Virus record (IMG/VR): IMGVR_UViG_3300009433_000014
Span: 1-38,479 of that record
Strand: one strand, 5' to 3'
Source of the DNA: a virus
Length of the DNA: 38,479 nucleotides
The notes beneath the pieces were generated by a model. It did not search any database and had not been told where the DNA came from. It saw only the letters and a program-made list of their open reading frames with translations. Below, in pieces: positions 18,904-24,848 of the stretch. How positions within the stretch are numbered: the first letter of the stretch is position 1; every line of letters starts with the position of its first letter. Made by a program: the position numbers and the translations under genes.

Positions 18904-18945
18904 GTTTTATACAGCTACAACGTCTCTCGTTGCTCTTTTATTGTG
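18904..18945 (-). promoter_or_regulatory. Leftward cassette copy before 18888
   Basis: On the minus strand CACAATA is followed by about 23 nt including ACGTT and then CTGTATAAAAC, matching the CACAATA-N23/24-CTATAGAAAC layout of the family. The 15-bp near-palindrome is not recognisable here, because this part lies in the coding end of the gene 18915-19202. That gene's TAG stop lies inside the cassette. Confidence 0.5.
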
Positions 18946-19202
18946 TCCTTCACCGTCATTGACAGCTCGTGCCAGTCGATTGCCTGAAGGCATCCATCAA
19001 CGAAGTCCTTGAGGATTCCGTTAGGTAATTTGTTGTAGGTATCCTCGACTATCATGTCGAAGCAATCTCTACACCACTGAGGGGTTACTCCCGTTAGGTC
19101 GTTCGGATTCTCGGTGTCGATGTAGGTCTCTGCGAGACCATCAACAAAACCCCAGACGTTGACCAACCACGTCTCTCTGTTGCGGAATGACTCGTAACTC
19201 AT
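18915..19202 (-). CDS. Small conserved phage protein, NRETWLVN type (95 aa)
   Basis: The N-terminus MSYESFRNRETWLVNVWGF resembles a family of small phage proteins (DUF7249-like, by memory) that begin with an N/YxTWLVxLW motif and a helical body. Function unknown. Its ATG overlaps the stop of the upstream gene as ATGA, so the two form one transcription unit headed by the cassette at 19621-19682. Confidence 0.65.
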   Translation of the reverse strand: MSYESFRNRETWLVNVWGFVDGLAETYIDTENPNDLTGVTPQWCRDCFDMIVEDTYNKLPNGILKDFVDGCLQAIDWHELSMTVKDTIKEQRETL

Positions 19203-19603
19203 GGCGTTGGGGCTTTTAGAAGACCAATCAGGCTGTTGTAGTCGTTCAGGATTCCGTTGCGACGAGCCATGTCTATGCCCTGCTCAAAGGTGAAGTACCT
19301 GAGGTCGGGGTTGGCCATGTGGTCTTCCTCGGACACGTCGTCCCATACGCTGTAGCGGAGGATGCCATCACCACCCAGCACCCAATGCTCATCTCCCTCA
19401 CTGAAGGGAAACTTAAGCTTACGCTGGTACTCTGACCAGTCTCGCTTGAATGCTTCCAGCTTCTCATTAATCTTCAGCTTGTGATACTTCTTGTAGCTGA
19501 TTTGCATTGGCAGTCGTGGCGAATTGATGTTGCCTGCATACACTTGACAGAAGGCCATCATTGCCTCATCCGTCCACTCGATATTACTATTTACTTCACT
19601 CAT
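19199..19603 (-). CDS. Hypothetical protein (134 aa)
   Basis: The product begins MSEVNSNIEWTDEAMMAFCQ. It has a Lys-rich helical section (KLKINEKLEAFKRDWSEYQR) and a beta-rich acidic second half with WVLGGDGILRYSVWDD. No family recognised; the phrase FPFSEGDEHWVL suggests a small all-beta domain. It is the first gene behind a complete cassette copy and has the conserved A-rich leader (CCAAAAAACATTTCATT). Confidence 0.65.
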   Translation of the reverse strand: MSEVNSNIEWTDEAMMAFCQVYAGNINSPRLPMQISYKKYHKLKINEKLEAFKRDWSEYQRKLKFPFSEGDEHWVLGGDGILRYSVWDDVSEEDHMANPDLRYFTFEQGIDMARRNGILNDYNSLIGLLKAPTP

Positions 19604-19620
19604 AATGAAATGTTTTTTGG

Positions 19621-19682
19621 TTTCTCTATCTATAACGCCAGACTTTCTGGGTTATTGTGCTCCGCTTGTTAACGGATGTTAA
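19621..19682 (-). promoter_or_regulatory. Leftward cassette copy before 19603 (complete)
   Basis: Read on the minus strand: TTAACATCCGTTAAC, 8 nt, CACAATA, then an inverted repeat ATAACCCAGA/TCTGGcGTTAT and ATAGAGAAACC. The near-palindrome directly abuts the stop of the gene 19683-20162. Confidence 0.75.
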
Positions 19683-20162
19683 TTACCAAGATGAGCTGTA
19701 CTCGAAGTCCATCGAGTGCTTCATGTCCTTGGCTTGGATTTGCTGTTTCACGAGCTTCTCGATAGTCTTTGCGGTCATACGCAAGTCCTCCAAGTAGTAC
19801 TCATCAAACTCTGTGCTCCCGTAGAAGAACCCACTTTGCGTAGGTAGTAGTTCTTCGGCTCGCTCTGGCGATGCGATGACGGCAAGGCAGGCGTGTCGCA
19901 ACTCTTGTAGTTGCTCGATACCTACGTAGTATTTCCCGCAGTCATCATCTCCGTCCTGCACGTTGTCAACGAACCACTTGTGGATGGCGTTGGCTTTTCT
20001 CCAGCACAGCACCTCCTCACGGATGCTGGTCACTTCGCCTACGCTTCCGAGGAAGGGTACACGCTTGTTGTTCATCTTCGCAGAGACCTTGTAGTCTCTG
20101 TCTGGTCGGTGACTCCAGTTCCGCACATAGTGGCTACGAGTCAGGTACATATCTAATCCCAT
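19683..20162 (-). CDS. MGLDMYL-type conserved phage protein (159 aa)
   Basis: The N-terminus MGLDMYLTRSHYV and the internal EVLCWRKANAIHKWFVDNVQDGDDDCGKYYV are characteristic of a protein family seen in many phages and bacterial genomes, with no known function. Conserved Trp, Cys and Asp residues in the core suggest a folded enzyme-like or binding domain. The gene follows 20189-20422 after 26 nt and has its own CAAAAAACAATTCA leader but no full cassette, so it is probably co-transcribed. Confidence 0.7.
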   Translation of the reverse strand: MGLDMYLTRSHYVRNWSHRPDRDYKVSAKMNNKRVPFLGSVGEVTSIREEVLCWRKANAIHKWFVDNVQDGDDDCGKYYVGIEQLQELRHACLAVIASPERAEELLPTQSGFFYGSTEFDEYYLEDLRMTAKTIEKLVKQQIQAKDMKHSMDFEYSSSW

Positions 20163-20188
20163 GGTGAATTGTTTTTTGGGGGTTTAAC

Positions 20189-20422
20189 TTAAATGTCGAG
20201 TGATTCCAGCTTCCAGAATAACGAGATGACCTCGTTGAAATCTGTGAACTTAGTCTCAGAAACTTGGTCTCCGCTCTCTGAGAACACCACAGCTTCATTG
20301 ATTCCGTTGAGCGTTGTGATTGACAGCTCAAGCTTTCCGATTTGAATCTTCATGACTCCGGCTTCGGTGGCCTTGTTTTGTGTCACGCTGAAGTGACGTG
20401 GGGTTTTATCGAACATACTCAT
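20189..20422 (-). CDS. Hypothetical protein (77 aa)
   Basis: A small beta-rich protein (KIQIGKLELSITTL, EAVVFSESGDQ) beginning MSMFDKTPRHFSV. No family recognised. It is the first gene behind the cassette at 20441-20480 and carries the standard leader CCAAAAAACAATTCA. Confidence 0.65.
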   Translation of the reverse strand: MSMFDKTPRHFSVTQNKATEAGVMKIQIGKLELSITTLNGINEAVVFSESGDQVSETKFTDFNEVISLFWKLESLDI

Positions 20423-24182: not shown

Positions 24183-24196
24183 GGCTTTCAATTTGT

Positions 24197-24218
24197 GGGG
24201 AGACCGATTTGCCTCCCC
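24197..24218 (-). other. 5'-leader hairpin of the ArdC-like gene
   Basis: GGGGAG and CTCCCC, separated by 10 nt, lie directly downstream of the predicted transcription start and 15 nt before the ATG. The same arm pair occurs beside the tRNA at 16494-16527. It may stabilise the mRNA or tune translation. Confidence 0.45.
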
Positions 24219-24220
24219 TG

Positions 24221-24261
24221 TTTCTATAGTGTTAACGCTTCTCAATCTCGCTTTATTGTGC
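24221..24261 (-). promoter_or_regulatory. Leftward cassette copy before the ArdC-like gene
   Basis: Minus strand: CACAATA, 24 nt including GCGTTAA, then CTATAGAAAC. The near-palindrome is missing because its place is coding sequence of the gene 24253-24741, whose stop lies inside the cassette. Confidence 0.65.
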
Positions 24262-24741
24262 AGAACCCAATCTAATTTGCGCCATGCTCTTTGCGTGGCT
24301 TGGCATCAATGGCTTCAAGCGTTCCAGTATCGCAACGTACTCAGCCTGCAACGTGTCCAGCTTCGATTGAGCAATGTCGATGGCTTCCTGAGCCTCGAAC
24401 CGCTCACTTGGAGTGGTGCAAGCATCCTTGAGGTTACGCATGTATCTGCGCTCCAGTATCGCGTCCTCGTATGCGTCTTGGTTGTCCTCACGGGCTTCCT
24501 TCAACAGCACTCGCTCGACGTTCTCCTTACACTCTCTCAAGGTCAATCCTCCGGAGAACATTTCGCTGTCATTGTCCTCCCATGCAGTGTACTCCTTGGT
24601 CACTTCGTCCTTGGAGATGAACATTCTGAATTCACCATCGACGAACACGTCGGTGACCTTCTCCTGAATGACTCCGTATCCCTCTGCTGTCAAGTCCATC
24701 GTGTTGATGCCTCGCTTGTATGTGATGTTTAACTTATTCAT
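24253..24741 (-). CDS. Hypothetical protein (162 aa), first leftward gene
   Basis: The product begins MNKLNITYKRGINTMDLTAE. Its N-terminal half is beta-rich (EKVTDVFVDGEFRMFISKDE, YTAWEDNDSEMFSGG) and its C-terminal half helical and charged, ending in a probable coiled coil. No family recognised. As the first gene leftward from the divergent region, it is likely among the first expressed. Its leader shares AACATAACCCCT with that of 18670-18888. Confidence 0.65.
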   Translation of the reverse strand: MNKLNITYKRGINTMDLTAEGYGVIQEKVTDVFVDGEFRMFISKDEVTKEYTAWEDNDSEMFSGGLTLRECKENVERVLLKEAREDNQDAYEDAILERRYMRNLKDACTTPSERFEAQEAIDIAQSKLDTLQAEYVAILERLKPLMPSHAKSMAQIRLGSAQ

Positions 24742-24787
24742 TATCAGTGTGTTAGGGGTTATGTTATATCTATTTAGCTATCGCGTT

Positions 24788-24848
24788 GTTGAGTGTATAA
24801 CGGATATCAATCTTGTTCTAGTATGAGCTAATTGCCAACAGATGTTAA
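24788..24848 (-). promoter_or_regulatory. Degenerate leftward cassette before 24741
   Basis: Minus strand: TTAACATCTGTTGGC (palindrome with three changes), 8 nt, CATACTA in place of CACAATA, and after 20 nt GTTATACACTCAAC in place of GTTATTACTATAGAAC. Position and order fit the family, but similarity is partial. Confidence 0.45.

Follow-up and report, generated by a model that had tools for sequence, protein, structure and literature searches.

In the middle promoters of phage T4, a MotA box replaces the -35 element, and sigma appropriation by AsiA and MotA redirects the host RNA polymerase (RNAP) to these sites (PMC2988021). Among the Bacteroidota, the -7 promoter element spans positions -12 to -5 relative to the transcription start (PMC6847099), and motif SM6 of Flavobacterium psychrophilum, which has a CGT box in its -10 region, has been attributed to an ECF sigma factor (PMC9723704). 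Here, we describe a repeated cassette, made up of a core and an optional upstream element (UE), in a 38,479-nt virus record from a marine bacteriophage (the window, meaning the whole stretch of DNA analyzed). The cassette is best read as a promoter class that is specific to the phage, carries a portable operator, and is neither a sigmaA nor a T7-type promoter, and no description of such a class was found in the literature searched.

By analogy, the cassette appears to work most like the T4 middle promoters, although membership in that class is not claimed. Like them, the cassette would place a short phage-specific box in the -35 position, at a fixed distance from the -10 region and with one copy per prereplicative unit, and would redirect the host RNAP. 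However, the MotA box lies 12±1 nt before TATAAT, whereas the CACAAT of the cassette lies 16 or 17 nt before CGTTnT; in addition, the cassette has the extra UE, and its presumed -10 is not the host consensus. With the flavobacterial ECF promoters (SM6), the cassette shares a CGT-type -10 box and a sigma-like -35/-10 spacing (PMC9723704), but its motif has no regulon in host genomes. Bacteroidota housekeeping promoters (TTTG/TAnnTTTG) serve the rightward genes of these same phages and, together with a UE, leftward genes of the related phage G017, whereas the window cassettes lack TAnnTTTG. The TATAGAA at the presumed start resembles T7/SP6-type promoters; unlike them, the cassette contains a box of the -35 type and a spacer of variable length, and no cognate polymerase was found in the records analyzed. 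The repeats GTGTCGTTAACGACAC of MW202828 (Caudoviricetes sp.) are likewise phage-specific and lie mostly just before leftward genes, but they are perfect 16-bp palindromes without the CACAATA/CGTT core, and several copies lie inside genes. In that phage (loci L267-L269), the leftward strand has 14 copies, most of them 14-40 nt upstream of an ATG.

Results

The window terminase and portal match PHROG families, and the terminase is 41-46% identical to those of Flavobacterium elemo phages and MW202828. An IMG/VR contig of 57,131 nt (G001) has nearly all of the genes that it shares with the window at 100% identity, and its ends join near window position 31,036/31,037, so G001 appears to be the same phage in the form of a circular genome. 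The entire leftward (early and replication) block is contained in the window; the ∼18.6 kb of G001 that lie outside it encode tail, virion-structural, and unidentified ORFs and no recognized polymerase. Relatives were collected with the primase as query (41 loci, 76-100% identical), and the larger contigs were then retrieved. G010, G011, and G012 form group 2 (primase 60-61%, terminase 78-80%), and G017 (terminase 68%) is a related phage without the cassette core. All cassette-bearing genomes are metagenomic, and the gene content between cassettes is mosaic.

Several other features of these genomes were observed. Primase/helicase, PDDEXK exonuclease, and DnaA-like proteins, but no DNA polymerase, were recognized in 11194-18888 and in G001, and a tRNA-Arg gene (anticodon tct, 16412-16486) directly precedes a DnaA-like gene. 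The ORF at 213-10073 encodes a virion-type protein of 3286 aa that has a conserved zincin motif (HEAFH/HExxH) but matches nothing in PHROG or the PDB.

All ACAATA and CTATAGAA-like strings were listed on both strands of the window. The layout CACAATA-(23/24 nt)-CTATAGAA is strand-specific and stands just upstream of the first gene in leftward units. When re-measured, the core reads GCACAATAA-N13/14-[G]CGTTnTnACTATAGAAAC and mostly lies 13-45 nt upstream of an ATG. It includes CGTTnTnA, directly 5' of CTATAG, which the initial annotation of this DNA had left out, and its last block varies among the strong copies as CTAAAGAA, TTATAGAA, and GATAGAGA. A position weight matrix (PWM) was built from seven copies (GCACAATAA, a gap of 13 or 14 nt, and the 19-nt block GCGTTnTnACTATAGAAAC). 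The seven strong cores (24261, 23194, 22786, 22414, 20974, 20480, and 19660) score 39-45 bits, and two weaker ones at 29689 and 18946 (Table 1) were both outside the training set. No comparable site is present on the opposite strand of the window, where the best score is 15-17 bits. The core was also recovered in the window by de novo Gibbs sampling of upstream regions, without prior knowledge.

The initial annotation had described the same layout at nine junctions, amounting to nearly every leftward unit. Seven of these junctions carry a strong core, the one at 18904 is weak, and that at 24788 is degenerate, being the orthologue of recognizable cassettes in G005, G009, and G015. The list was also incomplete in that it overlooked the site at 29689, which is kept in G001/G002 and has counterparts in group 2. 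The claim of one layout at nearly every unit was overstated because the operator part is found in about half of the copies. As for the view that the cassette marks unit starts, all leftward junctions between 24741 and 18888 whose gap is 26 nt or longer have it, apart from the 26-nt gap upstream of 20162, and genes linked by overlaps do not; it is also missing from the tightly packed genes from 18888 down to 11194.

Table 1. Positions of cassettes, host-type promoters, and putative regulatory genes in the window
Feature	Position	Strand	Remarks
Weak cassette core	29649..29689	-	26 nt before leftward gene 29164..29628, inside late block; 21.5-22 bits
Degenerate cassette	24785..24848	-	Before gene 24253..24741; UE-like TTAACATCTGTTGGC (24834-24848), then CATACTAGA-N13-CCGTTATACACTCAACAAC
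Cassette core without UE	24220..24261	-	Before ArdC-like gene 23241..24182; 40-43 bits
Cassette	23153..23216	-	UE variant TTAACATTAATTCAC (23202-23216), 8 nt, core (23153-23194)
Cassette	22745..22808	-	Exact UE (22794-22808), 8 nt, core (22745-22786); predicted start near 22749
Cassette	22374..22436	-	Exact UE (22422-22436), 8 nt, core (22374-22414)
Cassette	20934..20996	-	Exact UE (20982-20996), 8 nt, core (20934-20974)
Cassette core without UE	20439..20480	-	Inside 3' end of ORF 20449..20679
Cassette	19620..19682	-	Exact UE (19668-19682), 8 nt, core (19620-19660)
Weak cassette core without UE	18905..18946	-	Before 18670..18888; 18-20 bits
Host-type promoter	25216..25246	+	TTGACTTT-N15-TAACTTCG; rightward block; conserved, strong
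Host-type promoter	26520..26548	+	TTG...TACTTTTG; ends 4 nt before ATG 26553
Host-type promoter	27924..27951	+	TTG...TACATTTG; ends 4 nt before ATG 27956
Candidate factor gene	16830..17099	-	89-aa DnaA domain-IV-like protein
DnaA domain-IV-like gene	15786..16397	-	Adjoins primase; putative replication initiator or regulator
Third DnaA-domain-IV-like paralogue	12182..12718	-	Weaker; profile, E about 1e-5
Conserved winged-helix-like gene	30227..30661	-	Late block; possible regulator

Secondary structure was seen near some copies. The 42-nt leader of the ArdC-like gene (window 24188-24221) holds a hairpin, GGGGAGGC...GTCTCCCC, and one cassette of group 2 has an A-box spanned by a GGGGA...TCCCC stem. 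A hairpin in the spacer occurs in some orthologous copies, but it was rejected as a cassette feature, the mean stem over 58 distinct spacers being near expectation. The sequence AACGCGATAGCTAAATAGA (about 24767-24787), just after the first early-block cassette, is invariant in 7 genomes.

As the initial annotation had proposed, the genome and its relatives were scanned with the PWM. The window matrix or one from the diverged subgroup found 94 further sites in 16 relatives, all on the primase strand, and one site on the other strand. The motif might have been equally frequent on both strands, but over all 17 records the two matrices give 103 sites on the early strand versus 1 on the other. With the window PWM, each group 1 record whose early region is complete has 5-9 sites on the primase strand, most of them 14-46 nt upstream of an ATG, and shuffled sequences give 0-1 matches at ≥15 bits. 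Counted from the G of TAG, the distance to the ATG has a mode of 23 (17 records), and the core is conserved upstream of genes that differ between relatives. Group 2 has a diverged form, ACACAATAA-N13-ACGTTCTAATACTAGAAAC. CAATA and CGTT show 100% conservation, and AGAA almost that, in both diverged groups; these figures depend in part on the choice of sites by PWM score. Where the core runs over the end of ORF 20449..20679, ACA-ATA and CCG-TTC-TAA do not vary among relatives but the intervening codons do, which points to selection at the DNA level.

The tight cassette pattern was found in 0 of 84,980 bacterial and archaeal genomes and, in IMG/VR, only in contigs of this clade; no cassette of this kind was found in G017, MW202828, or Elemovirus. 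A looser pattern gave 13 genome matches, which were rejected as a host regulon: there was one per genome in the five tested, and most were AT-rich or coding. Two Sphingobacterium genomes (L306 near 2194 and L309 near 2127) each have one cassette-like site of 27-28 bits at the same locus, following a gene that looks like histidinol dehydrogenase, and this single site does not amount to a regulon.

The UE, TTAACATnnGTTAAC, is a separate and optional part that lies upstream of the core in 5 of the 9 window copies, with a degenerate sixth. Only four copies of the exact 15-mer, TTAACATCCGTTAAC, are present; a clear variant, TTAACATTAATTCAC, is at 23216, and a copy with 3 mismatches is at 24848. It had been described as a near-palindrome exactly 8 nt before CACAATA. 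That distance is seen at five window copies, and the element is absent at junctions 24221, 20441, and 18904, where the end of the preceding gene reaches into the core or directly up to it; a TTAAC-N5-TTAAC repeat with a period of 10 bp describes its sequence better than a palindrome does. A UE score of ≥9 is reached at 51 of 92 distinct sites, compared with 0.6% of random 64-mers. The distance to CACAATA is 8 (34 sites), 9 (4 sites), or -1 (9 sites), so most UEs stand at one of two positions that differ by about one helical turn.

In G017, a UE is found before the leftward genes at 993 and 68419 and is followed, 33 and 32 nt on, by CATCTTTG and AATCTTTG, which are near the Bacteroidota -7 consensus (host-type TAnnTTTG-like promoters). 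Relative to the start implied by this -7 element, the two UEs would lie at -60 to -46 and -59 to -45; a third copy (2279) is separated from a TATGTTTG by a longer stretch. The divergent rightward TTGACTTT...TACCTTTG promoter of group 2 has a UE upstream of it as well, and the position of this UE differs by about 11 bp between G010 and G012. Because it also precedes host-type promoters in G017, at a distance that matches the cassette if transcription begins at TATAG, the UE behaves as an independent module, in the manner of a portable operator.

Rightward genes in the phages that carry cassettes have host-type TTG-N17-TAnnTTTG promoters. The search that finds TAnnTTTG on these genes finds it in no window cassette, in agreement with the initial annotation that the cassette differs from the Bacteroidota (sigmaA) promoter consensus, and no host-type promoter was seen upstream of cassette-led genes. 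With host-type promoters on rightward genes and cassettes on leftward ones, two promoter classes would coexist in these phages. The late-block promoters before ATG 26553 and ATG 27956 are conserved in G003, G005, and G012 and imply nearly leaderless mRNAs. Downstream of the strong promoter of the rightward block, 25361-26518 encodes an M43-type metallopeptidase with a weak dockerin-like match.

The proteins of the clade were analyzed for a factor that could act on the cassette. No match to three sigma families (r2/r4/r4_2) was obtained in the clade, and Pfam scans of most leftward ORFs found neither MotA nor AsiA. No T7-type single-subunit RNAP was found in the circular G001 or the other records by a profile search that had no positive control among the control genomes. 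A virion-carried RNAP in the giant ORF 213..10073 was also rejected, as its product has no conserved DxDxD and no PDB match. The 89-aa product of 16830..17099 is present in all examined cassette genomes that include the region and absent from G017, MW202828, and Elemovirus. It is modeled with a pLDDT of 90 as DnaA domain IV; its ten best PDB matches are all DnaA (TM about 0.8 to 1J1V/3PVP), with Foldseek E-values of only 0.02-1. The product of 15786..16397 has the same predicted fold at lower confidence and a distant relative in G017. The winged-helix-like gene 30227..30661 is conserved yet adjoins a host-type promoter, and it was set aside as a cassette regulator.

Discussion

Based on the above comparisons, we consider it probable that the cassette is a promoter of a class specific to these phages and stands at the head of the leftward early and replication units, with the UE as a regulator site and, probably, a phage-encoded non-housekeeping factor. 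The promoter-plus-operator reading of the initial annotation gains support from the directional core, its narrow distance to the ATG, its conservation before differing genes, the lack of TAnnTTTG, and the independent behavior of the UE. From spacing, we infer that GCACAATAA would occupy the -35 position and CGTTnTnA the -10 (CACAAT-N16/17-CGTTnT): when the UE geometry of G017 is overlaid on the cassette, initiation is predicted at the A/G of TATAG, with CACAATAA at -35 and CGTTnTnA at -10. Transcription would then begin near the A/G of TATAGAAAC and give a leader of usually 20-26 nt. TTAAC-N5-TTAAC, at about -59 to -45 or one turn closer, would be a helically phased regulator site, more likely that of an activator. 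A specificity factor other than the housekeeping one, most likely a phage product, would redirect the host RNAP core.

This promoter function could instead depend on a host alternative (ECF-type) sigma factor, with CGTT as the flavobacterial CGT-type -10 box; we regard this as unlikely, but it is one of the two best-surviving alternatives. The usual ECF -35 box is of the AAC type, from which the -35 box of the cassette differs, and no AAC motif is evident at the right distance. The invariant CGTT does lie 16/17 nt from CACAAT, a -35/-10 spacing that fits despite the atypical -35 sequence; SM6 provides a precedent for such a -10 in F. psychrophilum (PMC9723704), and no sigma factor was found in the phages. 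However, the absence of the tight motif from the bacterial and archaeal genomes searched and the loose matches without a regulon argue against a host factor. Repetition of the signal along a genome was found only in this phage group, so it is probable that the phage supplies or recruits a factor of its own, and with neither a sigma factor nor an RNAP found in the clade and no regulon in hosts, a phage-encoded factor is more likely than a host ECF sigma.

An equally improbable arrangement is that TATAG is itself the true -10, with CACAATA (near -41) and the UE (near -60) as class II and class I activator sites and CGTT within an extended element. The rare subtype CGTTnTACTATCnAAC, which holds the distance from CACAATA to ACTAT constant while CGTT slides by 1 nt, is consistent with this arrangement. 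On the other hand, TATAG is not retained in group 2, which has TACTAG, and it differs from the Bacteroidota TAnnTTTG, whereas CGTT is invariant, and the UE geometry of G017 fits initiation at TATAG and not 8 nt downstream.

It is much less probable that the cassette is not a promoter at all but a repressor operator, a replication-initiator iteron, or a recombination site. The repetition of the sites, the encoded DnaA-type DNA-binding proteins, and the mosaic gene content between cassettes agree with such a role, but the strict orientation and narrow ATG distance, the lack of clustering at one locus, and the absence of a visible upstream host-type promoter for these genes do not. Least plausible is a promoter for a T7/SP6-like single-subunit polymerase (ACTATAGAA). 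The sequence ACACTATAGAA at 24261 is identical to the SP6 promoter core, but such promoters have no -35-type box, no such polymerase was found in the circular 57-kb G001 or the other genomes, and the giant virion protein has no conserved polymerase motif.

Returning to a phage-encoded factor, the clade-specific 89-aa protein is a candidate on the basis of its distribution and modeled fold. In one speculative scenario, to which we give little weight, a DnaA domain-IV-derived phage protein (this one or its paralogues) would bind CACAATAA at -35 and redirect the host RNAP to a CGTT-type -10, the clade having swapped housekeeping-type core promoters for its own while keeping the old upstream operator. 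The DnaA box is TTATNCACA; the reverse complement of the A-box, TTATTGTGC, shares only TTAT with it, and the other half differs. The DnaA-like proteins may serve replication only.

Little is known of the promoter classes of Bacteroidota phages, and a single genome of this clade can supply as many as nine or ten natural copies whose modules are defined. Together with G017, in which the same operator is joined to a promoter of the host type, and with a few candidate factors to start from, the clade makes phage redirection of a Bacteroidota RNAP directly testable. The cassette could also be used as an orthogonal promoter.
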